Shown: positions 6,957 through 31,072 of the stretch, one piece after another | How positions within the stretch are numbered: the stretch's first letter is position 1 | Layout: each line of letters opens with the position of its first letter | From: Parapedobacter soli | Lineage (GTDB): Bacteria; Bacteroidota; Bacteroidia; Sphingobacteriales; Sphingobacteriaceae | Assembly: GCF_025460835.1 (NCBI RefSeq) | Contig: NZ_JAMXAY010000008.1 | Span: 1 to 64,000, forward strand | Direction of reading: 5' to 3' | Length of the DNA stretch: 64,000 bases | The notes under the pieces: generated by a model | Databases searched by the model: none | What the model was told of the DNA's origin: nothing | Seen by the model: only the letters and a program-made list of their open reading frames with translations | Program-made: the position numbers and the translations under genes

Positions 6957-6991
6957 AATACTTTCTTTTCTACTTAATAATCTTCAACCTA

Positions 6992-11489: not shown

Positions 11490-12338
11490 TCATTCACGAA
11501 ATGTTTTCTTTAAAAATTCAAATCCTTCCACTGCCAGTTCATCGGCGCTATTGGCCAACGGGCGCCAGATACTGGCCGCCCGGGCTAGTTCTTTAGACGG
11601 TGCACCGAAAGTCTCGATCACCAGGCTTCCCTCATAGCCAATGGTGCGCAGCGCATCACGTATGCCTATCCAGTCCAAATGGCCCGTTCCGGGTGTCCCG
11701 CGGTCATTCTCATTGGCCTGCACATGGACCAGCCGATCCCCTAGCTTCACGATGCTGGCAGGGATGTCTTTTTCTTCAATATTGTTGTGGAAGGTATCTA
11801 ACAAAACCTTCAAATAAGGGCTGTTCAATTCATCTACAATGGCAATAGCCTGATCGACGGTATTGACCATATCGGTCTCAAAACGATTCAATGGCTCCAA
11901 TGCCAGGGTCACACCCAGCTCCTCAGCTCGCTTAATGGCTTCATGAAGGTTGTCCAGGCACCATTGCCTTTCCTGTGCTTTCTGTTCGGCAGAAACCAAT
12001 CTTGTCTTCCCGACGGCCGAATAAAGAGGTCCGCCGAATACCGGACTTTCAAAGTCATTCGCGATCTCTAGGCAATCGATGATATAGGAAAGCCCATTTG
12101 CCCGGATTTCCGGCCGATCACTGGAAATATCGCGGTCCATACCGAAAGCGCCGCTGACCGTCACGCGCAAACCCAGCTCGCGGCTCACCTTCTTCAAGAC
12201 CACCCAATCAATCAAATCGCGATCTTCCACAGCTATTTCAATGACATCGTACCCGATAGCTTTTGCCTTATGCAACACATCAAACGATGCTGTTGAGAAC
12301 GGTGAAACCCAAACAAACGTGCTAATTCCTATATACAT
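11490..12338 (-). CDS. Xylose-isomerase-like TIM-barrel sugar epimerase/isomerase
   Basis: A 282-residue cytoplasmic TIM barrel of the AP-endonuclease-2 fold, related to D-tagatose/D-psicose 3-epimerases. There is no signal peptide. Candidate metal ligands lie in LEPLNRFE, LLDTFHNN and the C-terminal VIETFG, and NENDRGTPGTGHLDW matches the conserved arginine loop. At the place where classical 3-epimerases have the ligand histidine (HFHTGE), this protein reads HVQANE, so one ligand is Gln or lies elsewhere. That substitution is probably shared by a subfamily rather than a sign of decay. It sits between the oxidoreductase and the enolase-superfamily enzyme, consistent with isomerising an intermediate of the same pathway. 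Confidence 0.85.
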   Translation of the reverse strand: MYIGISTFVWVSPFSTASFDVLHKAKAIGYDVIEIAVEDRDLIDWVVLKKVSRELGLRVTVSGAFGMDRDISSDRPEIRANGLSYIIDCLEIANDFESPVFGGPLYSAVGKTRLVSAEQKAQERQWCLDNLHEAIKRAEELGVTLALEPLNRFETDMVNTVDQAIAIVDELNSPYLKVLLDTFHNNIEEKDIPASIVKLGDRLVHVQANENDRGTPGTGHLDWIGIRDALRTIGYEGSLVIETFGAPSKELARAASIWRPLANSADELAVEGFEFLKKTFRE

Positions 12339-12380: not shown

Positions 12381-13490
12381 TTATTCAAAACTTGGAATCT
12401 CCACTCGGATGCCGCCTTTCATGGCCGACTCGTGGGCGCAGATACCCGCACAGGTATAGTTAGCCGCGAGTGCCGCATCCACCGCTGAGTCGCGGCCTTC
12501 CACGATGGCTGCAACGAATTCCTGCACCAAGTGGGGGTGCGAACCACCGTGTCCGGCCCCCTGGAGGAAAGACACGTGGTTAGGATCGTCGATGCGCTCG
12601 CGCTTGGTGAAATCAGCAATCTCCGGAATCAATAGTTCGTCGGTATCAGGCACGTCAATCCGACGCGCATTTTCACCGCCGTCAAAAATCACATGCTGCT
12701 CATCCTGCAATTGCTCCCATTCAAAAGACATCTTCGTTCCGTATACATCATAGCTCTCACGGTATTGCCTTACCACGTCAAATAACGACCGTGTAGCCTC
12801 TGCCACGACATCCGAATCTTTCAACTTGAACGTTGCGGTTTCTACGGCGTAGGGCGCATTGTAACGGCTGGCCAGATCGTCTGACAACCTCCCAGAGCCA
12901 TGGCAAACCACAGACTCGGCAATGGTATTGTTGATGCGCAGCAATGGGGAGATGGCGTGCGTACCGTTCAACATTGGTGGATAGCCCTTCCAGTACTCCG
13001 CCCAGCCATCCATACTCATGTCTTGGATGTGCGATCCACGGACAAACTGGATTTTACCCAATTGTCCGGTTTCGGCCAATTTCAGTCCATAGAGGAATTC
13101 ACGGGTATACAGTGCGGTTTCCATCATCATGTATACCTTACCTGATCTACGCTTGGCAGCTACAATGGCCTCACAGTCTGCTACCGTCATGGCCATCGGT
13201 ATGGTACAGGCCGTATGCTTATTCGCATTTAATGAAGCCAGTGTCATCCGGGCATGTTCCGGTACAGGCGTTACAATGTGGATGGCATCCACATCATCCC
13301 GTTTCACGACTTCTTCGAAATCGGTAAACACCAAATCTTCATCGAGGTCGAACTTTGTTTTCAGCTCATTCAATGTATTTTCGTTGCGCGTGCAAATCCC
13401 AACAGCTTTGATATTCGGGTGTTTTTGGTAGATGGGTATAAACTCTTTACCAAAACCCATTCCTACGATAACGACAGTGATTTGTGACAT
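12381..13490 (-). CDS. Gfo/Idh/MocA-family oxidoreductase with altered active-site motif
   Basis: A 369-residue NAD(P)-dependent sugar oxidoreductase by fold. The N-terminal Rossmann domain has VGMGFGKEF (residues 9-17) as the dinucleotide loop and IHIVTPVPEH near 70-79. The motif that is normally EKP, and whose lysine is catalytic, reads CTIP here (95-98), so the lysine is missing. The C-terminal alpha/beta domain (about 130-330) looks complete, ending AHESAMKGGIRVEIPSFE. No signal peptide is seen, so it is cytoplasmic. It lies 38 bases after the ThuA gene and 42 before the epimerase gene. Redox chemistry at a sugar hydroxyl is likely, but the altered motif leaves the mechanism open. Confidence 0.85.
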   Translation of the reverse strand: MSQITVVIVGMGFGKEFIPIYQKHPNIKAVGICTRNENTLNELKTKFDLDEDLVFTDFEEVVKRDDVDAIHIVTPVPEHARMTLASLNANKHTACTIPMAMTVADCEAIVAAKRRSGKVYMMMETALYTREFLYGLKLAETGQLGKIQFVRGSHIQDMSMDGWAEYWKGYPPMLNGTHAISPLLRINNTIAESVVCHGSGRLSDDLASRYNAPYAVETATFKLKDSDVVAEATRSLFDVVRQYRESYDVYGTKMSFEWEQLQDEQHVIFDGGENARRIDVPDTDELLIPEIADFTKRERIDDPNHVSFLQGAGHGGSHPHLVQEFVAAIVEGRDSAVDAALAANYTCAGICAHESAMKGGIRVEIPSFE

Positions 13491-13528: not shown

Positions 13529-14239
13529 TTAGTTTGCAATCCAGTTAACAGCATTGATCAGCAGCGATTTGTATGCATCATGCTGGTGGCTATGTTCGTC
13601 GTGTCCCAAGGTGATTCCTGCAATCTTCGCTTTGCGGTGTTTCACGGTAAAAACAACTGGGTAAACGGCATCGGTTTCTTTCGACTGCCCGATAACCAGC
13701 ACCTCAATCCCTTTAGCTGCTGGGTCCGGTACGTGGCGGTATAATTCGTCCTTAAATTCAAACTTTGCCGGCACGCCCTGTGTAATAGGGTGCGCTGGGT
13801 TAATGACATAGTCCTTGAATTCTTGGAACTTCTCGTGGCTCCTGCTACCGCCGCCCACATAATTAAGGTTGTACTCAGGCCAATCTTCCCAATTATACCA
13901 TACAGCCGCGTGCAACAGCAGTAAGCCACGGCCTTTCTCCACGAATTTCGTGATTGCGGCCTGTCCTTCTGCGCCGATCGGCTGGTTGTTCGTTAGGATA
14001 AGAAGATCAGCGTGCTTCAGGTATGCCGGTATGGAATCGGTGTTCTCGGTATAAATAACACGGAATTCACCTGCCGATTCGATGGTGCTTTTGTCCTCCT
14101 GGCCATACCACCGGGCGAAATCATGGGAGCCGCCACCTCCAACCATCAAAATTTCGATAGGTTTGGTCTGACCCGGCGCTGTGCTCACCGTAATAAGCAA
14201 CAATGCCAATACCGCTAATAGTTTCATTGTGTTGTTCAT
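13529..14239 (-). CDS. Secreted ThuA-like (trehalose-utilisation type) protein
   Basis: A 236-residue protein with an N-terminal signal peptide (about 1-23, ending TAPGQ), placing it in the periplasm. The rest is one ThuA domain, a class I glutamine-amidotransferase-like fold: EILMVGGGGSHDF at the start, ADLLILTNNQP and KGRGLLLLHAAVWYNW in the middle, and KIAGITLGHDEHSHQHD near the end, rich in histidine and likely metal binding. ThuA proteins occur in pathways that oxidise disaccharides to 3-keto sugars, though their chemistry is poorly defined. The neighbours here (PVC-type dehydrogenase, oxidoreductase, epimerase) fit that picture. An alternative start is the ATG at 14227 (MKLLAV). Confidence 0.88.
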   Translation of the reverse strand: MNNTMKLLAVLALLLITVSTAPGQTKPIEILMVGGGGSHDFARWYGQEDKSTIESAGEFRVIYTENTDSIPAYLKHADLLILTNNQPIGAEGQAAITKFVEKGRGLLLLHAAVWYNWEDWPEYNLNYVGGGSRSHEKFQEFKDYVINPAHPITQGVPAKFEFKDELYRHVPDPAAKGIEVLVIGQSKETDAVYPVVFTVKHRKAKIAGITLGHDEHSHQHDAYKSLLINAVNWIAN

Positions 14240-14273: not shown

Positions 14274-17200
14274 CTATTTCACTACCCGCATAATACCGTT
14301 CATCCCCCGCCAGTGCCCCGGGAACGTACATACGTAAGGATAGTCACCCGGCTCCCCCGGTGCCGTAAACTCCAACGTGTAGCTCTCGCCCGGATCTACC
14401 AATGGCGTATGGTGCAATACCTCGGGTATGCTGGGGATATATTGTTTTTCAAACGCTTCGGATGAACGGAGCATATCATCTGCCGCCTTGCCTACGATAT
14501 CCAGCGTACCGGGTTGGATAATCAGTAGATTATGCTGCATTCCGTCAGGGTTTTCAAACACGAGTGTTATCCGCTTGCCGGCCGGAACGGTGATCAGTTT
14601 CTTATCATACTGCATGATATCTTTCACCGCTTTCAGTTCAATCCGTTCAGAAGGTACGCTCGCGGCAGCGTCGGCCGCAGCTGCTGCCCCATCGCTTGCC
14701 AAAGCAGACCGGTTTGCCTTTGAAAGCCTGACGATGATATTATTGGCATTACCTGTAAACCGGGAATGGTCGCCATAGTCTGTAAACGCTTCGGGTCCTT
14801 CTATATCTTCGCCCGAGCGCAGGTTGAGGCCCAGCGGCTGGGCAAAGAGGTGCATCGCTTTTGCACTTCCCTGGCTTACCCCATTGATGAGTAGCTCTAT
14901 CGAGGCATCGGCCGTCAAACGGGCATCGGCCACAAACTCACCGGGCAGATTGCCACGTGAAGTTACCGTTGCCGATTGGCCATGCTGGTATACCTCGAAA
15001 AACAGTCGGTTGTTCTTGGCATACAACGCATAACCGCTATTTTTATCGCCCTGTCCTACAATCAGCCCGTTGTAAGGCTGGTTGTCTCGTCGCTGCACCT
15101 CCGCCTGGATGCGGATTTCCTTGTTTGAAACGTCGGGCGAAAACGTGAAACGGCTTCTACGGCCGAGCGTGTACTCTTCCGTAGCGAGCGACTCAAGTAT
15201 GCGTGTAGCAAAATTACTTACGCCCGGTGCAGACGCCAACCTAAAAAATGGGTCTTCGTGATGCGCTATTGCCGCAAACAGTCCTTGTGATAGCCACCTA
15301 TCGCTCTCATTAACCGAATCGCTCGTGGCTTCTAGCAACGCCTCTGCGACTTGTTCCGACACCGGGTACTCCGTGAGCTTCACAAACGCGGCGAGCCGGG
15401 TATTCAGATTAGTATCGGCCAACACGCCACTCTTCAATAACTCATCACGGAACTGCTCTCCTGTCGGCAACACCTGTACCGCAGCTTTACGTACCCCGGC
15501 TGAGGGGTGCCCCAAAGCTTTCACCACGGCGTCAGATACATCCTGCCGCTGACCAACCAGGTTCAATCCTTGCAAAGTCCAAAGTGCATGGATGGCCGGT
15601 GCATTCAACCCGATTTTGTCGACGCTACGATCACCCGCTATCCTGATCAAGTCCTTGGCAACGTCATCCTTTTGCCGCTCCACCAATAGCCGCTGCGCGT
15701 GCATGCGCCAAAATTTATTGTCGCTCTTCAGGGCCTTCAGTAGGCCACCCGTATCGTCTTTGGAAAGCTTATATGAGCTGTGGTGTTTGGCGTCTTTGTA
15801 CACCAAGCGATATACACGGCCGTATTTTTTATCCCGCAACTCACTCTCAAACGCATTGCCGGGACCATGGGGTTGTTCCACAAATGGCAATACCAATTCC
15901 GATGGTGCCTGGGCCGGTACGAACACATTGTGCTGGATGATGAAGTTATACCAGTCAAGCACCCACACAGCTCCATCGGGACCTACCTCTGCGTGGACCG
16001 GACCGAACCATTCATCTGAACTGGCCATCAAATTCCACCCATCGTGCTCCTTAAAACCCGCGCCGTCAGGCTCGATAATGGCTTTATGAACCAAACGCAC
16101 AGTTGGCTCGGTGACAAATGCGACCTTATTCCAATAACTTTGCGGATAGTCACGTGCGGTGTAGAAATGATGCCCAGCGGCCGAAGTGAATCCACCCACC
16201 ACATCCACCTGGCGGAGGTTTGGTGTCATCGTATGCACCTCATAGTGACCATCGATTTTTTGCACTGCATTGATCGATGGCCGCGAGTCATCGCCCCGAA
16301 GCCTACGCTGCAACAGCTGCTCGGGCATCGAATAGTAGGCACTGTGCGTGTTGTTTGCCGTTGAAATAAAAACGTTGTTATCTTCAGTCATACCCAACCC
16401 CCATGTATTGTTGCTGGTGGTAGCTAAGAATTCGAAATCAGTACCATCGGGGTTAAAATGGTATACACCTTGGCCGAAGGCTAGCCGCTGGCCATTAATG
16501 TAACCGTTGAAACCAGCATAGCCCGTAACACCCCAGATTTTGTTATCGAACCCATACTGTAGGTTAGAAGGTCCAGCGTGGGTATCATTCTTATTCCATC
16601 CCGTCATCACGGTGTCGCGTAGGTCTGCCACGTCATCGCCATCGGTATCTTTGAGGAAAATGAAATGGGGGGCCATCGATACAATGACACCATCATTGGC
16701 AAAGGTCAGGCTCGTGGCTATATTCAGCCCGTCTGCAAATACCGTGAACTTATCCGCCACGCCATCGCCGTCGGTGTCTTCACAAATCTTAATCCGGTCG
16801 TTCGCCTCCCCTTTAAGCTCAACAAAATTGTTGGGATAATCCATAGCCTCAATAATCCACAGGCGCCCCTTCTCGTCCCAGCTCATCGCCATAGGGTTAA
16901 CGATATCCGGTTCCGAAGCGAATAGCTTCAATTCGAAATCTGTGGGAACCTGGATAAGTTTCTCCGATTCCTCCGGCGACAACGGATCTTGCATTTTTGG
17001 AACAAAATGCCGGGCAGTAAAATCGGCAATGGTATCTTCATAAATACTTACACTTGGAATCTGTAATTGAGCTACCAAACCCATCACTTTCTCACCCAAT
17101 GCCCACTGCGCACCACTATTGATCATTCGCAAAAAGTCCAAACGCTTCCACGTGTCGTTTTCTTTACCAAGCGCCGTATGGAATATACGGCCATTGCCCT

Positions 17201-17621
17201 TCACTAGCTGTTGCGCCGAGTTTGCGGCACCGCCATCCATTGCTCCGGCGGGTGTGGCGTCATCGATAACCAGTGATTCCGTACCTAAAGAGAGAAGACC
17301 CTTACCACCGGATACATAGTCAGATAAAATCCGCTTTTGATCTGCTGCAAGGGAGTCGGAAATGCCAAATAACACCACGCCATCGTATACGTGTAGGTTT
17401 TTTTTATTCAGATCTTCAAAGTTCTCGGTATACGTCAGGTTGATGCCGCTCTTAAAAAGTTCGATTGCCAGCCACGATGCATACTTACCTGCTTCGTCTG
17501 CTTCATCAGCGCTGCCTACGAACAACACCTCGGCTCGCCGGGGGTAATTTCGATTATCGCCCGTACATTGGACAAGAAACAGACACAAAACGGCAAGATA
17601 CAAGTAGGAAATTAGTTTCAT
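14274..17621 (-). CDS. Giant lipoprotein: ThuA-like, PVC-type dehydrogenase, HEAT-like, jelly-roll and azurin-like copper domains
   Basis: A 1115-residue exported lipoprotein, first gene of the oxidative operon. The start at 17621 gives a lipobox with Cys19 (LFLVQCTGD). Domains in order: ThuA-like (about 28-195, with GRIFHTALGKENDTW and GAQWALGE); PVC-type dehydrogenase beta-propeller (about 223-607, with MAMSWDEKGRLWIIEAMDYP and DTDGDGVADKF); HEAT-like helical repeats (about 610-815); a jelly roll like those at sulfatase C-termini (about 824-967, with YALYAKNNRLFFEVY); and an azurin/plastocyanin domain (about 993-1115). The copper ligands are His1030, Cys1098, His1103 and Met1107, the last three with azurin spacing C-x4-H-x3-M. 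There is no CxxCH, so the copper site takes the place of the usual cytochrome c domain. Likely a periplasmic sugar or alcohol oxidase-like enzyme passing electrons to copper; the substrate is unknown. Confidence 0.88.
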   Translation of the reverse strand: MKLISYLYLAVLCLFLVQCTGDNRNYPRRAEVLFVGSADEADEAGKYASWLAIELFKSGINLTYTENFEDLNKKNLHVYDGVVLFGISDSLAADQKRILSDYVSGGKGLLSLGTESLVIDDATPAGAMDGGAANSAQQLVKGNGRIFHTALGKENDTWKRLDFLRMINSGAQWALGEKVMGLVAQLQIPSVSIYEDTIADFTARHFVPKMQDPLSPEESEKLIQVPTDFELKLFASEPDIVNPMAMSWDEKGRLWIIEAMDYPNNFVELKGEANDRIKICEDTDGDGVADKFTVFADGLNIATSLTFANDGVIVSMAPHFIFLKDTDGDDVADLRDTVMTGWNKNDTHAGPSNLQYGFDNKIWGVTGYAGFNGYINGQRLAFGQGVYHFNPDGTDFEFLATTSNNTWGLGMTEDNNVFISTANNTHSAYYSMPEQLLQRRLRGDDSRPSINAVQKIDGHYEVHTMTPNLRQVDVVGGFTSAAGHHFYTARDYPQSYWNKVAFVTEPTVRLVHKAIIEPDGAGFKEHDGWNLMASSDEWFGPVHAEVGPDGAVWVLDWYNFIIQHNVFVPAQAPSELVLPFVEQPHGPGNAFESELRDKKYGRVYRLVYKDAKHHSSYKLSKDDTGGLLKALKSDNKFWRMHAQRLLVERQKDDVAKDLIRIAGDRSVDKIGLNAPAIHALWTLQGLNLVGQRQDVSDAVVKALGHPSAGVRKAAVQVLPTGEQFRDELLKSGVLADTNLNTRLAAFVKLTEYPVSEQVAEALLEATSDSVNESDRWLSQGLFAAIAHHEDPFFRLASAPGVSNFATRILESLATEEYTLGRRSRFTFSPDVSNKEIRIQAEVQRRDNQPYNGLIVGQGDKNSGYALYAKNNRLFFEVYQHGQSATVTSRGNLPGEFVADARLTADASIELLINGVSQGSAKAMHLFAQPLGLNLRSGEDIEGPEAFTDYGDHSRFTGNANNIIVRLSKANRSALASDGAAAAADAAASVPSERIELKAVKDIMQYDKKLITVPAGKRITLVFENPDGMQHNLLIIQPGTLDIVGKAADDMLRSSEAFEKQYIPSIPEVLHHTPLVDPGESYTLEFTAPGEPGDYPYVCTFPGHWRGMNGIMRVVK

Positions 17622-17649: not shown

Positions 17650-17716
17650 CAAAAGTACACCGCAAACCCGCAGAAAAACCACGGTATCTTATCTCTTTAT
17701 AATCAAATTATATCAT
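17650..17716 (-). promoter_or_regulatory. Promoter plus 42-base activator site of the oxidative operon (copy 1)
   Basis: On the minus strand a -7 box TACTTTTG lies at 17657-17650, ending 28 bases before the ATG at 17621. From 17675 to 17716 lies a 42-base element matching another copy at 20816-20857 without gaps; the core TTATAATCAAATTATATCAT (17697-17716) agrees with copy 2 at 18 of 20 positions. The distance from -7 box to element is the same in both copies. It probably binds the AraC regulator encoded divergently at 17752. Confidence 0.65.
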
Positions 17717-17731
17717 TATTTTGTATTTTTA

Positions 17732-17739
17732 TATATTTG
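17732..17739 (+). promoter_or_regulatory. -7 promoter box of the AraC-family regulator gene
   Basis: TATATTTG matches TAnnTTTG and ends 12 bases before the ATG at 17752. The 42-base element at 17675-17716 lies just upstream, so the regulator may control its own gene from the same site. Confidence 0.5.
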
Positions 17740-17751
17740 CAATGATAAATC

Positions 17752-18654
17752 ATGAAAAAAAAGAACGTTATACCCAAAGCACTTATCCCCGAAAACCGGA
17801 CGTTCGTGGTACGTAAGCAAGTAGAACCTTATTTTGACCCCACATTCCACCTCCACCCGGAGTTCCAATTGTCTTACGTGGTTGAAGGCGAGGGAAACCG
17901 GTTCGTCGGCGATAGCATCAAACCATTCAAATCAAATGACTTGGTTCTTATCGGTCCGAACCTACCCCACGTATGGCGCAGCCATAACAGTTATTTCGAA
18001 AAAGACAGCGGCTTGAGTACCACGGTTATCGTCATTTATTTCCTCGACCATTTCTTGGGTGAAATCATCCATGACAAAGAGGAATTTGAAAGTATCAAGC
18101 ATCTTTTCCAGCGCTCGCAATGTGGCATTGAAATCACTGGTGTCACCCAGCGGGCCGTAAGTCATATGATGGTCGAGTTGCTGGAGTTGAAAGGTACCGA
18201 CAGTATCATTCAGCTCCTTAGGATACTCAATACCATCGCGTTATCAGACGAGTGCCAACTTATTACCGATACCCACTCAAAAGTCTACAATACCGAAGCA
18301 GAAACAGACCGGATGAACAAAGTGTATGAATTCATCATGAAGAACTTCCATCGGAAAATACATCTGGAAGAGGTCGCATCTATTGCTAGCATGACGAATA
18401 CATCATTCAGCCGGTATTTTAAGTCGCGGGTCAACCAATCATTTTCCGACTTCCTGAAGGAGATCCGTATCGAGTATGCGTGCAAGCTTCTCAAAGAAGA
18501 CAAGATGAACATAGACCGTATCGGATTCGCATGCGGTTTCCAGTCGGTCACCAATTTCAACAAACAATTCAAAAGCGTAACAGGCAAGCAGCCCCACCAG
18601 TACCGGAACGAGTACCAAAAGGTTGCGATAGACACGTACCACCAATATCATTGA
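17752..18654 (+). CDS. AraC-family transcriptional regulator with cupin sensor domain
   Basis: A 300-residue cytoplasmic regulator. Residues about 20-110 form a cupin-like ligand-binding domain (FHLHPEFQLSYVVEGEG, then LVLIGPNLPHVW). Residues about 190-295 carry the two helix-turn-helix motifs of AraC proteins: IHLEEVASIASMTNTSFSRY and IDRIGFACGFQSVTNFNKQF, closing with TGKQPHQYRNEY. It is divergent from the oxidative operon, with a conserved 42-base element in the shared gap and a second copy before the GH43 gene at 20755. It is therefore the best candidate regulator of both units, probably as an activator. Its last 7 bases overlap the end of the convergent GH43 gene, so there is no room for a terminator between them. 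Confidence 0.93.
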   Translation: MKKKNVIPKALIPENRTFVVRKQVEPYFDPTFHLHPEFQLSYVVEGEGNRFVGDSIKPFKSNDLVLIGPNLPHVWRSHNSYFEKDSGLSTTVIVIYFLDHFLGEIIHDKEEFESIKHLFQRSQCGIEITGVTQRAVSHMMVELLELKGTDSIIQLLRILNTIALSDECQLITDTHSKVYNTEAETDRMNKVYEFIMKNFHRKIHLEEVASIASMTNTSFSRYFKSRVNQSFSDFLKEIRIEYACKLLKEDKMNIDRIGFACGFQSVTNFNKQFKSVTGKQPHQYRNEYQKVAIDTYHQYH

Positions 18655-19718
18655 AACACCGGCGCCGCTTGCGGTGTGGTGCTGGGTACGCCGCCGGCGA
18701 TTTCCGGCCAGCCGTCGCGCCAAGTGACTTTATCCAATAGCAGCATCCGCCGGCTCGCACCGCTCGACACCTTGCCCTTAGCGCGGTCTATGCCATGGTA
18801 TAGGAACCAATCTGTTCCTTCATCGTCGGCAATCAGCCGCGCATTATGGCCCGGACCAGCAATACGTGCGTTCCCTTCCATAAAAAGCGTACCTTTTCCA
18901 CGGTCGGTAATGGCGTATCCTGCCTTGTCCACATACGGTCCCATCAGGTGTTCCGAGCGCGCCACCAACACATGGTATTTACTATCGGCCCCTTCGCAAC
19001 AACTGCCTTTGGAACCGAAGAAATAATAATATTCGCCCCGTTTATGGATCATCACGGCTTCATAATCGCCGGCGGCGATTTTCACTTTTTGCGACAGATC
19101 GGGTACAGATAGCCCGTCGTCTGCCATTTTCACGCCATAGGTGCCTTGTGTTGGCGCATTGCTGAAGCTGCCCCAAAATAGGTATTTTTCTCCCTCTTCT
19201 TCAAAATAAAAGGCATCGATGGAATTCGGAACGTCCACTTCTTCGCTGGTAAACACCTTACCGTGGTCGGTAAAGGGGCCCGTCGGCTGGTCCGCCACAG
19301 CCACGCCGATACCCGGATTAGGGTCGCCCCACGTGGAATACGCATAGTAAAGGTGATATTTACCATTCACGAGATTTATATCCGGAGCCCATATCCCCCC
19401 GTCTTCCTTCCAAGAGGGCTTCTGTTCAAATGCCTGCCCCACCACTTGCCAGTCTACCAGGTTGGTCGATCGGATGATGGGCACGAGCCGGCTACCTTGC
19501 CCATCACCCCAATTATCCTGGGTGCCATAAGCGTAAAAGAATCCCGTTTCCGGGTCGCGGACCACGGTCGGGTCAGCAAGGATGGGTTCAAAGACCGGAT
19601 TGGTGTATGTCGCCACCGATGTATCCGGTTGCTGTACATCGTCGGTATCAGGTTGTTCGTCTGTGCGTGCGCAGCCCGCAAGTAGCAACAAGACAACGAG
19701 AAGATTGTAAATCAGCAT
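18648..19718 (-). CDS. GH43-family arabinosidase/xylosidase-type lipoprotein
   Basis: A 356-residue lipoprotein (lipobox LLLLAGCARTD, Cys near 16) with a single five-bladed GH43 propeller. ILADPTVVRDPETGFFYAYG carries the general-base aspartate of blade one, NSIDAFYFEEEGEKYLFWG the second acidic residue, and LFMEGNARIAGPGH the probable acid glutamate. GH43 enzymes invert alpha-L-arabinofuranosyl or beta-D-xylosyl bonds; endo-arabinanase-like members look closest, but the specificity is not settled. It lies 29 bases after the GH43 gene at 19748 and probably shares its promoter. Its end overlaps the convergent AraC gene by 7 bases. Confidence 0.9.
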   Translation of the reverse strand: MLIYNLLVVLLLLAGCARTDEQPDTDDVQQPDTSVATYTNPVFEPILADPTVVRDPETGFFYAYGTQDNWGDGQGSRLVPIIRSTNLVDWQVVGQAFEQKPSWKEDGGIWAPDINLVNGKYHLYYAYSTWGDPNPGIGVAVADQPTGPFTDHGKVFTSEEVDVPNSIDAFYFEEEGEKYLFWGSFSNAPTQGTYGVKMADDGLSVPDLSQKVKIAAGDYEAVMIHKRGEYYYFFGSKGSCCEGADSKYHVLVARSEHLMGPYVDKAGYAITDRGKGTLFMEGNARIAGPGHNARLIADDEGTDWFLYHGIDRAKGKVSSGASRRMLLLDKVTWRDGWPEIAGGVPSTTPQAAPVFQ

Positions 19719-19747
19719 CGCTTTTGAACTTGAATGAGAAAATAGTT

Positions 19748-20755
19748 TTATTTCTGTAGCGTGGGTTTAATTATCCCATCGCTGTCCACACGAAACGTGT
19801 AGTGGCCGACCGCCTCATCCCACTTCCTAATGACGGGAACAATCCGCGTCCGCCTGGGCGTTACCTGTTGCTGGTCGAAATGCACATGGTACACGTAGTA
19901 CAATTGACCATCCAATCCTTCAAATAAATCGCCATGTCCGGAGCCGTTTTCACCCACGATTGTACGGTGGATGATGGGGCTATCGCTTTGTTTGATCCAA
20001 GGGCCGTATGGCGAATCGGCAACGGCATATCCTACGGCGTAGTCGATATTCATGAAGTGATTGGCCGAATAAAACAGGTAATATTTATCTTTCAACTTGA
20101 TGACGGTGGGTCCTTCCATGATGGGTGCCGACTCATAAGCCGGCGTTGCTTCCCATGGTTCGGTTTGACCAAAACATTTCGTTAATGTTTCGGGTTTTAT
20201 CTCTCCTTTCTTCAAATCGAACTCGGCCACCCACAGGTAATTGCCATTATCAAACCGAACATGGTAGAGGTAATGTTTACCATCTTCATCTTTGAAGATG
20301 TAAGAGTCGATATTCTTCTCGGTACCGTCTATGGGCCTAACTTCACCTTGCGTATAGGGGCCTAGCAACGTAGTCGATTGCGTCAACACGGTTTGCTCAT
20401 TGGCGGTATACGTCAAATAATACGCACCGTTTCCCTTTAATACTTGCGGCGCCCAGAACCCGTGGCTACCGAAGGCCTGCTCACCCTTCGAGAGGATCAT
20501 ATGCGAATCTTGCATACCCGTGGGCACGGTCCAGGTTTTTAGGTCCGTCGATTCCAACGCCGCGAATCCCGACGATGCCGACTTTCCACTTCCTCCTGTG
20601 CCTGTTAGGTAGTACTTTCCATTTTCGACATATATCGTTGGATCGGCAAAAAAAAGTTCCTGCTTTTCCTGCGCCCTCAGGTATATTCCGACGGTCAATA
20701 ATCCGGTTACTAGCAAAAAGCAATAGCAAGTCGTGTTGTTCATTCGCTCGTTCAT
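19748..20755 (-). CDS. Secreted GH43-family glycoside hydrolase
   Basis: A 335-residue exported GH43 propeller enzyme, with signal peptide about 1-29 (ending YLRAQEK). The catalytic trio is visible: the base aspartate in ELFFADPTIYV, the second aspartate in KNIDSYIFKDEDGKHYLYH, and the acid glutamate in IMEGPTVIKLKDKYYLFYS. HGDLFEGLDGQLYYVYHVHF is the usual last blade. Arabinofuranosidase activity is the likeliest role. Upstream lie a -7 box (20791-20798) and a 42-base element shared with the oxidative operon, so this gene starts its own transcription unit with the GH43 at 18648. The ATG at 20743 is an alternative start. Confidence 0.9.
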   Translation of the reverse strand: MNERMNNTTCYCFLLVTGLLTVGIYLRAQEKQELFFADPTIYVENGKYYLTGTGGSGKSASSGFAALESTDLKTWTVPTGMQDSHMILSKGEQAFGSHGFWAPQVLKGNGAYYLTYTANEQTVLTQSTTLLGPYTQGEVRPIDGTEKNIDSYIFKDEDGKHYLYHVRFDNGNYLWVAEFDLKKGEIKPETLTKCFGQTEPWEATPAYESAPIMEGPTVIKLKDKYYLFYSANHFMNIDYAVGYAVADSPYGPWIKQSDSPIIHRTIVGENGSGHGDLFEGLDGQLYYVYHVHFDQQQVTPRRTRIVPVIRKWDEAVGHYTFRVDSDGIIKPTLQK

Positions 20756-20790
20756 CTCAAAGGTTAGTATACGTTCAACTCGTTACAAGA

Positions 20791-20857
20791 CAAAAATAAA
20801 CCGTTCGCTTCCACAAAAACCATGATATATTGCCTCATTATAGTCAAATTATAGCAT
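20791..20857 (-). promoter_or_regulatory. Promoter plus 42-base activator site of the GH43 pair (copy 2)
   Basis: On the minus strand a -7 box TATTTTTG lies at 20798-20791. From 20816 to 20857 is the second copy of the 42-base element, with core TTATAGTCAAATTATAGCAT (20838-20857). The last -7 base and the first element base are 18 positions apart, exactly as in copy 1 (17657 to 17675). The element overlaps the shifted 3' end of the preceding GH43 gene, but lies wholly outside that gene's restored reading frame. Confidence 0.65.
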
Positions 20858-21899
20858 CGCACAGTCTTTCCGCCCATTTAGAATGACAATCACGGAGGAA
20901 ACCAACAACCGACGAATAGGTGTCGTTATTGCAAAAGCACCGGTGTAATGTAATCGGCATCGATCTGCATGGTGGTTTCTCCATCCTTTTCGACGAAGTC
21001 CACCTTGCTGATATGCATGATACGGGGATGAATCTTCGCCTCACTGTGATGGGCATGGAAACGATCCGCAAGTCGCCCGCTTTATCGGTAAATAGGGCAC
21101 TGTGGCCTACTCCGACCAAGTCGCCCGGCTTTTGTAAAATCGGGTTACCGGCGTACTTCGTCCAAGGCCCTGTTACCTTGTCGGCTGTAGCATACCCGAT
21201 ACCATAAAATGGACTCTCATAGCTATTAGCTGAATAGGTCATGTAATATTTCCCATCATGCTTTAGCACGAAAGGCCCTTCATTCACCCGCGGCCACACT
21301 TCTTCCCACGCTTGCGAAACGTTGATGCATTTCACAGCTGTTTCCGGCCGAATTTCCGTCAGGTTTTCTTCAAGCTCAGCCACCCAGATGTTCAAGCCGT
21401 CGTTAAACCGATCATAGAAAAGGTAAGGTTTCCCATCACCGTCTATGAACAACGAATTGTCGATGCATTTCTCACCGCTGATCATCGGCTGCTGTACTTC
21501 CTGCTTAAACGGGCCGAGCGGGTGGTCACTCGTGGCTACACAGATATGTTCGTCAGCTGAGTAATACATATAAAATTTGCCGTTCACATGGTACACTTCG
21601 GGCGCCCAAAACCAACGGTCGCCCCAAGAGTCTTTCTTATCCAGCGCCAACCGATTGCCCGGCACGGCTTCCCATGTAAGCAGGTCTTGCGACACATAAA
21701 CGGCAATACCGTCGTCGGCATAGGTACCGTAAGCGTAATATGTATCCCCGTGCAATAAAATGAAAGGGTCACCGAAAAATACCTTTGTTTCCACTCGCTT
21801 GGGAGGCGGTTCCGGCAGCTCACCGTTCTTGCTCGACGAACAAGCCAATACATTGAAACTGATGGCGGCTGTGATCAATAAAATCGTCCTCATACCCAT
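20844..21899 (-). CDS. GH43-family lipoprotein with a C-terminal frameshift
   Basis: Encodes 351 residues as read, of which about 1-280 are a good GH43 propeller: lipobox near Cys20 (FNVLACSSSK), base aspartate in VFFGDPFILL, second aspartate in KCIDNSLFIDGDGKPYLFYD, acid glutamate in RVNEGPFVLKHDGKYYMTYS. After residue 280 (LRIV) the sequence turns into arginine- and serine-rich text unlike the family. Adding one base to the A-run at 21059-21061 restores LRIVFHAHHS and a normal last blade, ending at a TAA at 20926-20928 with a 324-residue product. So this is a one-base deletion, real or from sequencing. The restored end also frees the regulatory element at 20816-20857 from coding sequence. 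It starts 5 bases after the stop of the preceding gene. Confidence 0.85.
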   Translation of the reverse strand: MGMRTILLITAAISFNVLACSSSKNGELPEPPPKRVETKVFFGDPFILLHGDTYYAYGTYADDGIAVYVSQDLLTWEAVPGNRLALDKKDSWGDRWFWAPEVYHVNGKFYMYYSADEHICVATSDHPLGPFKQEVQQPMISGEKCIDNSLFIDGDGKPYLFYDRFNDGLNIWVAELEENLTEIRPETAVKCINVSQAWEEVWPRVNEGPFVLKHDGKYYMTYSANSYESPFYGIGYATADKVTGPWTKYAGNPILQKPGDLVGVGHSALFTDKAGDLRIVSMPITVRRRFIPVSCISARWTSSKRMEKPPCRSMPITLHRCFCNNDTYSSVVGFLRDCHSKWAERLCDAII

Positions 21900-21904
21900 A
21901 TACT

Positions 21905-22948
21905 TTACTCGTTATCTATTCCAAAATGATTTACTAACGCGTCGTACTCCGCTTTCGAAATCGTGATCATACAGCCATGGCGTACGGATGCCGGCAGGCT
22001 GTACTTGTCCCAATCTGCATGGAACGTATAACCCGATGCCTGGTACCAAGGCCCTTCCAGTCGATCGGCAATAGACAAGCCATATGAAACGCCGGGGTAT
22101 TGTTCGTAGTACATGTACCAGATCTGGTTATCGGGCGACGGAATCAACATCGGTGCTTCCCGGAAATTGGGGCTTATCGGTGCCATAGGTTCCGAATAGG
22201 GGCCGGTAAGCGCCGGTGCCCGCGAAATACGGATGGTTTTGCCCGTAGGCCAGTACAAGGTGGGATACGTTTCGTCCTTGATAACGGCATAGTAATGAGC
22301 GTCTATCTTGCGGATGAACACATCAATGGTACCCATGTCCCAATCGAACAATTTCGTGGGGTGTTCGGAGAACGATTTGAGGTCTTTGGAAAGCACATAC
22401 AAGGTGCGTTGGCTTGCCCAGTACCGTTCGGGGTCCTCCTTGGTACCCTCTTCGTGCGGCGTATGCCACGTAAGGATGTATTGCCGCGATGGCGCATCGA
22501 AATAGAGTTTTGGTGCACCGATACGTTGCAAAGCATGCCCATAGTCGGGTGTACTCTTCAGGTCGGGCGTGTAGGTGCTGTATTTTTCCCACTTGATCAA
22601 ATCGGCAGATACCCAGATGTTGATATCCGGCGACGAATCACTGGTGTTTCCGGCGATGTAATACCTACCATCGTGCCCCTTGCAGATATCGGGGTGGCCG
22701 CGATAGTCTTCAAATACCCGCTTCTCGCCGTTGAGGGCATACCAATGCAAGCCATCGGTGCTGACCGAGTAGTACAATTTGCCATAATCCTGGTGGGTCA
22801 TGTGAGCAAACAGATAGGCTTGGTTTATGGCCTCCGCGGGCTCCTCTACCTGTCCGGGAGGATCGGGTTGTTGGGCAAGAGTGGGGTTGCCTATCCATAT
22901 GAATAGGAACAGTACCATCCTCGTTTGATTTTGTTTAACAGTTATCAT
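21905..22948 (-). CDS. GH43-like five-bladed propeller protein, secreted
   Basis: A 347-residue exported protein (signal peptide about 1-25, ending GNPTLAQQ) with a propeller resembling GH43 and related families, but more distant than its neighbours. Blade signatures include LYYSVSTDGLHWYAL, INIWVSADLIKWEKY and TIRISRAPALTGPYSEP. Possible catalytic acids are in RGHPDICKG, MGTIDVFIRK and FREAPMLIP; the usual ADP motif near the start is absent. It lies between the BNR gene and the frameshifted GH43, so it probably helps degrade the same arabinose-rich glycan. The specificity is unknown and it may belong to a different propeller family. An alternative start is the ATG at 22918. Confidence 0.75.
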   Translation of the reverse strand: MITVKQNQTRMVLFLFIWIGNPTLAQQPDPPGQVEEPAEAINQAYLFAHMTHQDYGKLYYSVSTDGLHWYALNGEKRVFEDYRGHPDICKGHDGRYYIAGNTSDSSPDINIWVSADLIKWEKYSTYTPDLKSTPDYGHALQRIGAPKLYFDAPSRQYILTWHTPHEEGTKEDPERYWASQRTLYVLSKDLKSFSEHPTKLFDWDMGTIDVFIRKIDAHYYAVIKDETYPTLYWPTGKTIRISRAPALTGPYSEPMAPISPNFREAPMLIPSPDNQIWYMYYEQYPGVSYGLSIADRLEGPWYQASGYTFHADWDKYSLPASVRHGCMITISKAEYDALVNHFGIDNE

Positions 22949-22959
22949 AGTTTGTTCAT

Positions 22960-24459: not shown

Positions 24460-26262
24460 CTATATCCAACCTGGATTTTGGATAATCGTGGGCGTCTTAT
24501 TGATTTCCGATTGAGGTATTGGCCAAAGGTAATGCTTCTTCTCGAATACCCTGCGCTTCAAGATTGATCGCTCATAAAACTCATCGTCCTGCAAATGTGT
24601 CCCTTTGTCCACCGTCATCCGATAGAAATCCTTATTATCGGTTTCTTCGGCAATCAACCACCGACGCGTATCAAAATACCTATGCGTTTCAAAAGCGAGT
24701 TCGATTCTCCGTTCGTGACGAATCTTCTCCCGCATTTCGTCTTGGGTCAATCCTTCAGGAAGCTCCGGCAACCCAGACCGGTTTCGGATCGCATTCACAT
24801 ACTTGTAAACGTCAGCTACCGGGCCTTGTGCCTCATTTAGCGCCTCGGCATAATTGAGGTATTGTTCACCCAGCCGGAAATAAATCCACGTTTTCTGGGT
24901 AAAAATATTTTGCGGTATACGGACAGATTCTTCCGAGAATTTTTTCATGAGATATCCCGTCACGGAATGGTCCACTGCACTTCTCGACCGGCCATCGAGG
25001 CCACTATTCCAAAACTCGATGCGACGTTCGCGCCAGAAAGCTCCACTGTAATTGATAGCGGCATAGAAACGGGGTTCGCGGCCGACGTACATATTCCTGA
25101 TCTGGTCCAAGTGGTAGCCTTTGGGATGGGCCTCCTCGGCATAGCCGGTTTCCCGATAACCCGATTCCGGATTAATAATAGGTTGCCCATTGGCCTCATA
25201 TCCTAAAATCGGCGTAGACCCATCCGCCATCTCGTAGGCATCCACCAACTCCTGCGTAGGGCAATAGCCGCTCCATCCCCCCATTCCGTTAGGGCTCGTA
25301 CAGCGCTCTTGATGGTCCCAATTGCCCATATTCCGAGCAAACAATACTTCTTTGTTGTGACGTACGTAAAACAACTCCTGATAATTGCGCATCGGATCAT
25401 TATTGGTCGAGGTGTAAAGGCCATAACCGGCGGCTTCAGCCGCTGTGATTACATCACGTGCTGCGTCAGCAGCCTTCTGCCAACCTTGCGGGTCATATTC
25501 GGCAAACAATTTCAACCCGTCTTGATCGGTAAAGTCCGTATACTCTGGATTACCGTTCCAGAGTGGACTAGCAGCATACAATAACATTCGGGCTTTTAAT
25601 GCCAGAGCCGAAGACTTGGTCGGGCGACCTAGCTGCGTCCGGTCTTCAGTGGCCCCACTAATATACGAAGGCAGCAATAATGAAGCTGCGCGGTCGCAGT
25701 CAGCCACGATAAAATCGACCACTTCTTTATAAGGCCGCCTTTTTATCGCTGCAAAGTCATCATCCAATGTAGCTGCACGGTCCATGATGGGTATCGGTCC
25801 ATGAATACGCACTTGGAAAAAATGGAAGAATGCCCGCAAGAAATACGCCTCACCTTTCCAGATGTTTTTTTCCGCCTCGCTCATCGGTGTCTGGTCGATG
25901 CGTTCCAGGAATATATTTACCTTCCGCATACCTTCCCAATCAAATCGCCAAATGTTTTCCTCAATATTCTGCGGGCTCCATGCGCCAGACGTCATGACGT
26001 GTGCAAAAGGGTACGTCCATGTAATTTCCATCTCATCCGAGGCACCCACAAATGGATTACGCCCCCACCAATCGTTGAAACTAATCTCTTCATGCAGGGT
26101 AAAATAGGCCGAGGTAAGAAATCGCTCGGCATATTGGCGCTGGGCGAAGACTTGATCGAGTGTTAAGTCTTCATCGGGAGTCTTATCCAGAAAATCTTTG
26201 GTACACCCATTGAGTGCTAAAAAGAAGGTAAAAACCGTTATATATAGGAATATCCGCTTCAT
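24460..26262 (-). CDS. SusD/RagB-family nutrient-binding lipoprotein (locus C)
   Basis: A 600-residue surface lipoprotein. The ATG at 26262 was chosen because it opens the signal peptide MKRIFLYITVFTFFLALNGC (Cys20) and avoids overlap with SusC; a longer reading frame reaches 26295. After the cysteine come KDFLDKTPDEDLT, FLRAFFHFFQVRIHGPIPIM in the helical core, and FETHRYFDTRRW plus LWPIPQSEINKTP at the C-terminus, all typical of SusD. It binds an oligosaccharide for the SusC encoded 7 bases upstream. GH43 and GH5-like genes around it suggest an arabinose- or xylose-bearing ligand, by context only. Confidence 0.95.
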   Translation of the reverse strand: MKRIFLYITVFTFFLALNGCTKDFLDKTPDEDLTLDQVFAQRQYAERFLTSAYFTLHEEISFNDWWGRNPFVGASDEMEITWTYPFAHVMTSGAWSPQNIEENIWRFDWEGMRKVNIFLERIDQTPMSEAEKNIWKGEAYFLRAFFHFFQVRIHGPIPIMDRAATLDDDFAAIKRRPYKEVVDFIVADCDRAASLLLPSYISGATEDRTQLGRPTKSSALALKARMLLYAASPLWNGNPEYTDFTDQDGLKLFAEYDPQGWQKAADAARDVITAAEAAGYGLYTSTNNDPMRNYQELFYVRHNKEVLFARNMGNWDHQERCTSPNGMGGWSGYCPTQELVDAYEMADGSTPILGYEANGQPIINPESGYRETGYAEEAHPKGYHLDQIRNMYVGREPRFYAAINYSGAFWRERRIEFWNSGLDGRSRSAVDHSVTGYLMKKFSEESVRIPQNIFTQKTWIYFRLGEQYLNYAEALNEAQGPVADVYKYVNAIRNRSGLPELPEGLTQDEMREKIRHERRIELAFETHRYFDTRRWLIAEETDNKDFYRMTVDKGTHLQDDEFYERSILKRRVFEKKHYLWPIPQSEINKTPTIIQNPGWI

Positions 26263-26269
26263 GTCTTTT

Positions 26270-29200
26270 TTACTTAAAATTAACTTGTAGACCAAAATTT
26301 AATGTGCGTTGCAACGGGTAAAAATTCGTTCCGTTATTGGACTCGGGGTCCATAATTTTTACCTTGTCCCAAGTGTGGAGGTTTACACCATTCACGAATA
26401 GGCGAATGCTATTCATGCCCCAGTTGGCCAAACTCGGCTGGGTAAACGTATAAGCTACTTCTGCATTTTTTAACCTTAAGAAAGAACCATCTACTTGCCA
26501 AAGCGTTGACGTTCTGTTATTATTGGGGTTGGCAACGGTGATTGCGCCCGGGTACTTGCCCTCTGGATTATCTGGGGTCCAGCGGTTGTCATAATACTGC
26601 CGTTGCACATTAAAGGTACCGACACCGTCTTGGAAGGGATACATTGTTGAACCATCCAGAAAAATACTAGTTCTTGTCGCGCCGGTAAGGAATAAACTCA
26701 CGTCAAACCCTTTATACGCCACGGTCCCTCCAAATCCATACACGATTTGCGGCGTACGTGGGAAACCAATTGCGGTACGATCGTTGTCATCGATGATATT
26801 GTCGTTGTTCAGATCGCGGTATTTGATGTCGCCCGGCTGGCTAGCTCGCCCAAGCCGTTGCTCTGGGCTGTTTGCAATTTCGTCATCGCTTTGGAATATA
26901 CCCTCGGCGATCCATCCGAACGGTTGATCAATGGGCAGCCCTTTTGCCGACAACCACGGATAACGTTGTGGTGGTTCATCGTTCTCAATGATGGTATTCT
27001 TGGCAAATGTAAAGTTACCTTGGAACGAATAGTACCAACCTGACGAGGTAGAATTCTTCACTTCAATCATTCCATCGATACCACGGTTCTTCGCTCGACC
27101 TAAGTTAGCATAAGGGATTACCCAAGGATAGAATCCGGTAACAAACGGTATCTGTTGACGCTGGATAAGGATACCTTCTCGATCTTCCCAAAAGGCATCT
27201 ACCTGAAGAACAACTTTGCTTCGGAACAATTCGAGGTCTAACCCGAGGTTTGTTTTTGTCGCTACTTCCCACGTGACATTCTCATTACCGGTTTGGTCTT
27301 CTTCGATACCCGGCATAAAACGCATGTTATCACCGAAGTGGTAGGATTGAGCGCCCTCCGTTTTCATCGACGTTAGAAATAGAAAACGGATGTCTTGGCC
27401 TAAGTCGTCATTACCTACCTTTCCGACAGACCCTCTTATTTTGAAGTGGTTTATCGGGTTATTGTCGCCCCAGAACGACTCATTGGATAATATCCAGCCG
27501 GCAGATGCCGAAGGGAAAAAGCCGAAACGATTTCCTTTCGGAAAGTTTTCGGAGCCATTGTATCCGGCATTCACTTCCAAAAGATAGCGGTTATCGTATG
27601 CATAGGTGACGCGCGACGCCGTGCCCAATCTACGGTAGGGCAAGTTCAGCATCGACTCCCCAGCTGTGAGCCTTACCCTATCCCGTTGGTTGTACATCAA
27701 CATACCAGAAACGTCGTGCTTTCCGAAAGATCGGGTATAGTTAGCCAGTAACTCGGTATAATATACCCGCTCTGCGGTGTTACCAAGTGCGTAGCCCAGG
27801 GGGCTCGCTTCGCGAAGAATTTCGCTATAAATATCTTCCCCAGTTACCGGGTCTTTCCCTTGGTATTGTTTCACCTCGAAATTCTTTTGCCGGCGTACGT
27901 CCGATCGGTAGTAATGGTCATATGCAAACTTACCGTTGAGTGAGAGCCCGGAGGTGATTAAGTCAGAGAGGTCCCATTTCGCCCCGAAAGTGCCTTGTAC
28001 GGTATTGCGTGAATCCACGAGGTATCCAGATTGCGTAACCATACCCCAGGGATTGGAGCCCAGAAATTGAGTAATACCTGCCGGAGACCCGTCCGGATTC
28101 TGCTTAGGAAAAGCAATAGGAGGTGTTTTCCGCAATGCATCGAAAATATCCGGGGCCGACCGAGCCGGGTAATTCCCTTGCTGGATGATTCCACCCAACC
28201 CGAACTCAAATAATAGGTCCTTGGTAACACTCACGTCGATATTAGACCGGAGGTTATATCGACGCATATTGATGTTGGTGTTATACGGGTTGCTTTCGTC
28301 GTTCTTCCACAAACCACTCTGTTCGGTATAGCCGACATTTCCGTAATAGCGTATCACCTCCGTACCCCCATTAATACTGAGGTTGTTAATGGTCTGATAA
28401 GTGTTCTTCTTCATGATCTCGTTGGTCCAGTCGACGTTTGGGTAGAGATAAGGATCTTCCCCACTTGCATATCGTTGAATCTCTTCTTCCGAAAAAAAGT
28501 CGCTCTGGCCCATATTGCGGTATGCCTCATTCCATAACCTGGCATACTCCACGCCATCAATATACTTTGGCATCCGTTGTGCAGTAAGCAGTCCGGTTTC
28601 AGAACGGAGCGTTACCTTCGGCCGGCCTTGTACGCCGCGTTTGGTCGTGATGAGAATCACACCATTTGCTCCACGTACACCGTAAACAGCCGTGGCCGAC
28701 GCATCTTTAAGGATAGAGAAACTCTCGATTTCTTGTGCGTTGATCGTATTCAACGCCGACATCCCACGCTCCACGCCATCAACCAATACCAGTGGTGTAC
28801 GACTCACCCAAGTTCCCATACCGCGAATATAGACTTGCGCCTGGTCGTAACCGGGCTCGCCGCTGGTTTGTCGGGTAATGATACCGGGCATACGACCGGC
28901 CAAGGCATTCGACAGCGAGGGCGCGGTAGATTGTTCCAGCGCTTTGACCGACACCGAGGCTACGGAACCCGTCATGGTCACTTTTTTCTGCGTACCGAAA
29001 CCAACGACTACGACCTCTTCGAGTTTGCTTTGTTCTTCATCAAATTCCATGACAAAACGCCGCTCCCGATCATTGCCTGCCGGAACCTCAATGGGAAAAT
29101 AGCCCTGATAGGTAATGACGATAATCGATTCTGGCGACGGAATTTCCAACATAAAATTCCCATCAATGTCCGTTTGCGTACCATGTGTACTGTTTTTTAT

Positions 29201-30617: not shown

Positions 30618-30867
30618 TGGTGTTTTGCTGGTTATCAAATTGGCATCATGCCTTACTTCTTACAAAGGACGGCATTTATGGCTGCTGCGTGTTATACCAT
30701 TTTGTTTCAACTTTTCCCTATTTTGTCTCAAAAAGTCTTTACCTTTGTTATACACAACCGCCAGTTGTTACCATGGGTTCCCGCCAACTCTTCTAAACGC
30801 TTCGTACTTGCTCCGTAATCGATTGGTACCTGATTTGCCGTAGTCCAGGTTTTTCCCGTAAAAAGGT

Positions 30868-31034: not shown

Positions 31035-31042
31035 TACCTTTG
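31035..31042 (+). promoter_or_regulatory. -7 promoter box of the histidine kinase gene
   Basis: TACCTTTG matches TAnnTTTG exactly and lies 30 bases before the ATG at 31073. This placement favours the ATG over the in-frame TTG at 31040, which lies inside the box. Confidence 0.5.
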
Positions 31043-31072
31043 GCTAAAAAACCGCGGGAGCCGGATGAGCTA

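Follow-up and report, generated by a model that had tools for sequence, protein, structure and literature searches.

Which regulator reads a promoter element that occurs on both sides of one gene, and how many operons answer to it? The window analyzed here, a stretch of 64,000 nucleotides (nt) from Parapedobacter soli, is part of a 116-kb contig in a genome of 5.17 Mb. It encodes an AraC-family one-component regulator of 300 amino acids (17752–18654, plus strand) between an operon of oxidative sugar enzymes and a pair of GH43 genes. A 41-base-pair (bp) element stands ahead of each target. Predicted operator 1 (17675–17715, minus strand) is read toward the oxidative operon and sits between two divergent promoters, and predicted operator 2 (20816–20856, minus strand) precedes the GH43 pair. 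The best explanation, to which we give a probability of about 0.87, makes the element the putative operator of this AraC protein, a proposed activator.

The element occurs at three places in the genome

The first-pass annotation of this DNA described two 42-base copies of the element, each with a minus-strand box at the same distance, and both copies and both boxes lie where it placed them. The 42-mers at 17675 and 20816 are identical at 34 of 42 positions, 8.1 standard deviations above the mean of a window scan, and the next best places for the 17675 42-mer reach 24/42 on the same strand and 23/42 on the other. A third full copy lies on a separate contig (G000:C99:26109-26146) ahead of a run of sulfatase and GH43 genes. 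A degenerate pattern searched with up to 3 mismatches through the 5.17-Mb genome hits three places and its reversed control none; a 70-position model returns three strong sites with expectation values (E) of 2.6e-17, 1.6e-14, and 9.7e-14, followed by E = 0.33. The genome scan that had been suggested as a check on the element gave these three strong sites and not many unrelated copies. The regulon had been defined by two copies; both stand, but its extent was underestimated, the copy ahead of the sulfatase run having been missed. A single genome carries the operator at several separate places, the pattern of a dispersed regulon. Strong sites number three in this species (on two contigs), four in P. 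pyrenivorans, three in P. tibetensis, and one in each of the other four species that have the regulator.

The element is a tandem repeat at a fixed distance from a -7 box

The core of the element is a direct repeat of GATAnnAT with half-sites 21 bp, or two helical turns, apart. The direct-repeat test places the distal core of operator 1 (GATATAAT, 17707–17714, minus strand) and its proximal core (GATAAGAT, 17686–17693, minus strand) at starts 21 bp from each other; the corresponding cores of operator 2 are GCTATAAT (20848–20855) and GGCAATAT (20827–20834), also on the minus strand. Across 30 mutually related sites, the repeat profile score peaks at an offset of 21 among offsets of 9–31, and 0 of 5000 column shuffles match it. 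Both half-sites start with G at all 30 sites, and the key GATA positions are equally constant, with variable DNA separating the element from the box. Tandem direct half-sites two helical turns apart beside a promoter are the arrangement of AraC/XylS-type operators.

All 14 genus sites have a -7 box of the form TAnnTTTG, a motif found at 4 of 5786 positions in the flanks. The box starts 17 nt past the 41-bp element in 13 of the 14 and 18 nt past it in the remaining one, the sulfatase site of this genome. Within the window the 17-nt distance leads to TACTTTTG (17650–17657, minus strand) for the oxidative operon and to TATTTTTG (20791–20798, minus strand) for the GH43 pair. The geometry was recovered with a model (R1) that was made from the three own sites and contains no box positions; it added 11 sites (E ≤ 0.003, next 0.36), every one with a box at 17 nt. 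Outside the genus, six of eight promoters in the later R3 model, chosen by their position upstream of AraC, have TAnnnTTG at 17 nt, and two Pedobacter loci dropped from the models keep it as well. In the AraC upstream regions of these two loci, L093 and L102, the repeat GATACAAT...GATAACAA is present with TAAACTTG 17 nt on.

Bacteroidota -33/-7 promoters carry a TTG -33 element about 19–21 nt upstream of the -7 box. The conserved 3' end of most genus sites, GGTTTT, falls at the -33 position, and alignment by eye of the genus sites finds GGTTTT, GCTTT or ATTT there and no TTG. A promoter without TTG at -33 is as expected if transcription depends on an activator.

The AraC protein has a double helix-turn-helix and may control its own gene

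The C-terminal part of the 300-residue protein matches HTH_18 at 72.3 bits (cut-off 33.6) and HTH_AraC at 44.6 bits (26.6), giving the double helix-turn-helix of the family. Its N-terminal part scores just under the cut-offs for Cupin_2 (25.2 bits against 27.2) and AraC_binding (21.0 against 21.1). The domain search found no kinase, receiver or sensor domain in it, and the protein is not a hybrid two-component system (HTCS) regulator. The divergent araC promoter has two candidate -7 boxes on the plus strand, TATTTTTA (17724–17731), 8 nt from operator 1, and TATATTTG (17732–17739). A TAnnTTTR box 8 nt from the distal half-site recurs at six of the seven genus orthologs and at three Sphingobacterium-type loci.

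In the proposed mechanism, inducer-bound AraC would place two adjacent subunits on the same face of the DNA at the tandem half-sites. The proximal subunit would contact RNA polymerase at the poor -33 box, a class II activation, and the activating ligand would be some sugar. AraC bound at 17675–17715 would also overlap the core promoter of its own, divergent gene and repress it. By position and comparison, the regulon in this species would consist of the oxidative operon, the GH43 pair, and the distant three sulfatases with an esterase/GH43 gene.

The element travels with the AraC ortholog

The comparison used R1, a 70-position model of 14 genus sites (R2), and a model of 22 sites (R3). Twenty-five loci were scanned before R2 and R3 were built, and L093, L102, and L100 were left out because their best matches lay away from the AraC promoter. 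The family survey covered 301 genomes with an ortholog threshold of E ≤ 1e-90; R3 was run with Infernal's stricter filters, under which weak true sites may be missed.

An AraC ortholog, 85–89% identical, is encoded in seven of nine genus genomes, this one included. In each of the seven, R1 finds a site (E ≤ 2.8e-7) immediately upstream of AraC, and in the two genomes without the ortholog its best match is E = 5.5 in one, with nothing at E ≤ 10 in the other. R2 finds 14 sites in the genus genomes at E ≤ 1.1e-12 before a gap to 0.0165, all confined to the seven ortholog-bearing genomes. In the family survey the ortholog is present in 19 of 301 genomes, and all 23 R3 matches at E ≤ 1e-4 fall in ortholog-bearing genomes. 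The nine matches outside Parapedobacter (five from loci in the R3 model, four from loci that were not) all lie 41–218 nt upstream of the ortholog. In 16 of the 19 ortholog genomes the locus contains a site at E ≤ 0.01, and the element is retained ahead of the ortholog in Sphingobacterium, Mucilaginibacter, Pedobacter, and Membranihabitans. No full site turned up in 23 loci of more distantly related AraC paralogs (best E 0.0093, partial). A weak match at G259:803933 was dropped because it has no box. The suggestion that the element is a shared promoter module of the AraC gene is well borne out, as far as sequence can tell, by this co-occurrence in 7/9 genus genomes, the lack of a strong site in the other two, conservation across genera, the fixed spacing, and the 21-bp repeat.

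Evidence against the assignment and alternative explanations

Several observations weigh against the element being an activating operator of this AraC protein. Three of the 19 ortholog genomes (G018, G228, and G283; 50–54% identity) lack a locus site at E ≤ 0.01, and the three Cognataquiflexum ortholog loci (L100, L101, and L145; 50–51% identity) have no element. Weak matches from 1e-4 to 0.01 with R3, the loosest of the models, occur in 72 of the 282 genomes without the ortholog, the best at 2.8e-4 in G180, with the genus genome G001 at 0.0055; these are taken as noise. Many matches at E 0.004–0.01 cover only model positions ~4–44 and come mostly from one genus (g16), and they are taken as chance or another feature. 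Two of the eight R3 outgroup sites lack TAnnnTTG at 17 nt (L098 has CATTATTG and L099 no box). The eight later sites all have the box at 17 nt, an agreement that is biased because the model that found them includes the box. The araC-side box at 8 nt was not found in 10 of the 19 ortholog promoters examined, which makes autorepression less sure. The preference for activation over repression is drawn from the position of the operator.

One competitor for the element is the HTCS (31040–34255) with its response regulator (34230–35024), divergent genes within 15 kb whose orthologs flank the locus in the five other species for which that flank was fetched. Their AraC-type DNA-binding domain would be expected to bind 21-bp direct repeats, and a survey of Bacteroides HTCS motifs describes direct repeats with an average spacing of 21 bp (Ravcheev et al. 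2013, PMC3878776). However, the HTCS side has a 21-bp repeat of its own with a different sequence, GAGACAAAAT(11)GAAACAAAAT (30699–30729, minus strand; in full GAGACAAAATAGGGAAAAGTTGAAACAAAAT), which stands before the GH10-like gene and is conserved there in six species. It has 0 mismatches at 30699–30729 and 4 substitutions at a second place in the window (22928–22958), and the GH10-like promoter is unlike the AraC element (21/41 or lower at best). This separate repeat is probably the operator of the neighboring HTCS, and given its presence the HTCS is unlikely to bind the AraC element. In the outgroup loci, moreover, the element accompanies the AraC ortholog, and tblastn over at most ~10 kb per side (several shorter) found no HTCS bar a 26% match in G259. 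We consider binding by the HTCS very improbable.

If the element had no regulator of its own, it could be a plain conserved promoter with constitutive activity, a leader feature, or a repeat spread by recombination; this would account for the AT-rich promoter sequence and the -7 box that the copies have in common. The GH43 promoter flanks are alike in P. pyrenivorans, so that pair looks like shared inheritance. Yet the genes behind the element vary (DUF7133 protein, GH43, sulfatase, SusC, and extracytoplasmic function (ECF) sigma factor) and their flanks are unlike, the strong sites (E ≤ 1e-4) are confined to genomes with one and the same AraC ortholog, and the GATA positions are identical in 30/30 sites, in contrast to the variable stretch that separates element and box. 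Such a feature has very little chance of being the explanation. A different proposal accepts AraC binding and makes the protein mainly a repressor that inducer would release. A repressor could also work from the operator, which borders the -33 position, and one-component AraC relatives can repress in the absence of ligand. Against it, the box keeps a strict 17-nt spacing and TTG is missing at -33, both of which fit an activator-dependent promoter, and the AraC-family protein CgrA of Zobellia is described as a positive regulator (PMC5698469). Repression as the main mode is unlikely. The preferred assignment remains the AraC protein as the binder and proposed activator.

The oxidative operon is the conserved putative target

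The element stands ahead of the oxidative operon in all seven Parapedobacter species with the ortholog, and the same holds for Sphingobacterium, Mucilaginibacter, G200, and G249. Membranihabitans, G259, G045, and two Pedobacter have it ahead of their SusC ortholog; G032 has two elements, one before the oxidative operon and one before SusC. In P. tibetensis the element also precedes the SusC inside the oxidative operon. The SusC gene of the present window (6992–10099) has no element directly upstream, and transcription of the oxidative operon probably runs through the SusCD genes (5109–10099), which look like an ancestral target of the same AraC by this comparison. The outgroup stretches show no GH43/HTCS block like the one in the window; they do show a GH43 match downstream in G032 (43%), a GH43 match in L098 (25%), and weak HTCS/regulator matches in G259 (26–28%). 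From this distribution of outgroup targets, the oxidative module together with its SusCD is taken as the original core of the regulon. The oxidative target would be ancestral across genera, and the GH43 pair and the sulfatase run look accessory from the sequence comparison.

The first-pass annotation had tied the GH43 pair to the oxidative module instead of to the SusCD next to it. For this species the assignment to the AraC side holds because the HTCS-side SusCD (24460–29398) stands behind the different 21-bp repeat. It does not extend across the genus. Among the seven ortholog-bearing species, the element precedes the GH43 pair here and in P. pyrenivorans only, in similar flanks, but the gene is present with no element ahead in P. 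defluvii, P. indicus, P. koreensis, and P. luteus, and the stretch fetched from P. tibetensis contains no such GH43 gene. In the redone tree this species and P. pyrenivorans are not sisters. The GH43 site may be ancestral with later losses, which the similar flanks favor, or it may have been gained twice. Judged from gene order, and in line with the separate repeat on the HTCS side, the two GH43 genes nearest AraC would be under operator 2 and the others are probably read from the HTCS side.

The third site of this genome lies ahead of three sulfatases, followed by the esterase/GH43 gene. P. pyrenivorans also has the element ahead of a sulfatase, to which the third sulfatase here is 81% identical, and a sulfatase ortholog is present in five of the nine genus genomes. 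Degenerate element-like fragments precede the sulfatase orthologs of P. defluvii (24/41) and P. tibetensis (21/41), just upstream of position 1501 in L212 and L210, with no box at 17 nt; they are possibly decaying sites, or chance. Upstream of the P. indicus sulfatase nothing is recognizable as the element (19/41).

In P. pyrenivorans and P. tibetensis an ECF sigma/FecR gene pair followed by SusC has the element in front (L071:10696-12595 and L073:15736-17626), which suggests an AraC-to-ECF cascade in these two species. The third ECF ortholog, in P. defluvii, has no strong site. P. pyrenivorans also has a borderline fifth site (L207:6246-6315; G007:C1:904246-904313), with E of 0.0165 under R2 and 1.9e-4 under R3. 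It has a TATTTTTG box at 17 nt and lies about 400 nt before a UPF0261/PEP_hydrolase-like gene pair, and it is a candidate operator only.

Gene content of the locus

The oxidative operon is read on the minus strand. Its first gene (14274–17621) encodes a lipoprotein-like DUF7133/PVC-type protein, an unusual fusion of a ThuA-like stretch, DUF7133, and a C-terminal plastocyanin/azurin-type copper domain; as the first gene of the ancestral regulon it has a plausible role in electron transfer. Its true start is probably the ATG at 17621, which opens the lipoprotein-like signal MKLISYLY, rather than the mechanically called GTG at 17660, because the -7 box is downstream of that GTG. An 85-base stretch elsewhere in the genome (L002; G000:C152:7814-7898), perhaps from a paralog, is 75% identical to the gene's 5' coding part. 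The genes that follow, all on the minus strand, encode a ThuA-like protein (13529–14239), a Gfo/Idh/MocA oxidoreductase whose nearest solved relatives are DgpA1 and DgpA (12381–13490), a xylose-isomerase-like TIM barrel (11490–12338; its best NCBIfam model, D-psicose 3-epimerase, scores under that model's cut-off), and, by domain search, an enolase-superfamily dehydratase-like protein (MR_MLE_C; 10238–11446). SusC (6992–10099) and SusD (5109–6956, domain search) come last, both minus strand and both probable members of the AraC regulon; SusC has its own element upstream in several relatives.

Behind operator 2 on the minus strand are a first GH43 gene (19748–20755) and a second (18648–19718), whose nearest solved relatives are endo-1,5-alpha-L-arabinanases. 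The minus strand beyond AraC holds in all three GH43 genes, a fourth GH43-like gene under the Pfam cut-off, a BNR protein, the second SusCD, and the GH10-like gene, past which lie the divergent HTCS and response regulator genes. The GH43 open reading frame (ORF) at 20844–21899 looks frameshifted near residue 280, in its last fifth. Its genus homologs mostly align to the first 280 of 351 residues only, and the C-terminal frame that matches relatives ends at ~20926, ~70 bases ahead of the element. The frameshift may reflect a true lesion or an error in sequencing, and it is the only reason that operator 2 overlaps this ORF.

Significance and comparison with known systems

A wider reading, offered tentatively and at less than even odds, is that the ancestral job of AraC was an oxidative sugar route (3-keto-type and linked to a copper protein) with its own SusCD, into which individual species plug GH43 arabinanase-like, sulfatase or ECF sigma/FecR-SusC loci through the gain or loss of one 41-bp module. 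If this is true, the bacterium would be expected to use a sulfated, arabinan-like glycan and to process the products by oxidation, and P. pyrenivorans and P. tibetensis would have a two-tier cascade in which AraC acts on an ECF sigma factor. The analysis provides a putative operator sequence of fixed geometry, based on 14 sites in the genus and further ones in outgroups, for an AraC regulator of which no description was found. By linking particular hydrolases and sulfatases to an oxidative sugar module that is poorly understood, it narrows down the possible substrates. Two different 21-bp tandem repeats lie side by side, each with a likely AraC-type regulator, so that sequence is enough to divide the genes of what looks like a single polysaccharide locus between two regulons. 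Among the titles and abstracts listed by searches of one open-licence library, none describes this regulator or operator; an AraC-LacI hybrid from the literature was compared and is unrelated.

Escherichia coli AraC binds tandem direct half-sites 21 bp apart at araI1-I2 of pBAD, with the divergent promoter pC. The present system resembles it in the 21-bp tandem half-sites, the proximal one abutting -35 there and -33 here, the divergent regulator gene, and likely autoregulation. It differs in having the Bacteroidota TAnnTTTG -7 box in place of -10, another half-site sequence, and targets that include oxidative sugar enzymes, GH43 enzymes, and sulfatases.

Bacteroides HTCS regulons combine an AraC-type domain with direct repeats averaging 21 bp and the control of polysaccharide loci (Ravcheev et al. 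2013, PMC3878776). The AraC-type DNA-binding domain, the 21-bp repeats, and polysaccharide-locus control are found here too, whereas the regulator is a 300-residue one-component protein without sensor kinase or receiver and the motif is different; the HTCS of this locus seems to have retained a motif of its own. In the carrageenan regulon of Zobellia galactanivorans, CgrA acts positively, and the genes induced by carrageenan, sulfatases and SusCD among them, are scattered over separate places (Ficko-Blean et al. 2017, PMC5698469). The likeness lies in a one-component AraC-family regulator within a polysaccharide locus, with dispersed genes that include sulfatases and SusCD, and in positive action, which is proposed here. 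The enzymes are different, and the available text does not give the CgrA operator or the dependence of each gene on CgrA. Beside these systems, the AraC element of P. soli looks like a known kind of regulation in a newly mapped example that is well supported by sequence comparison.

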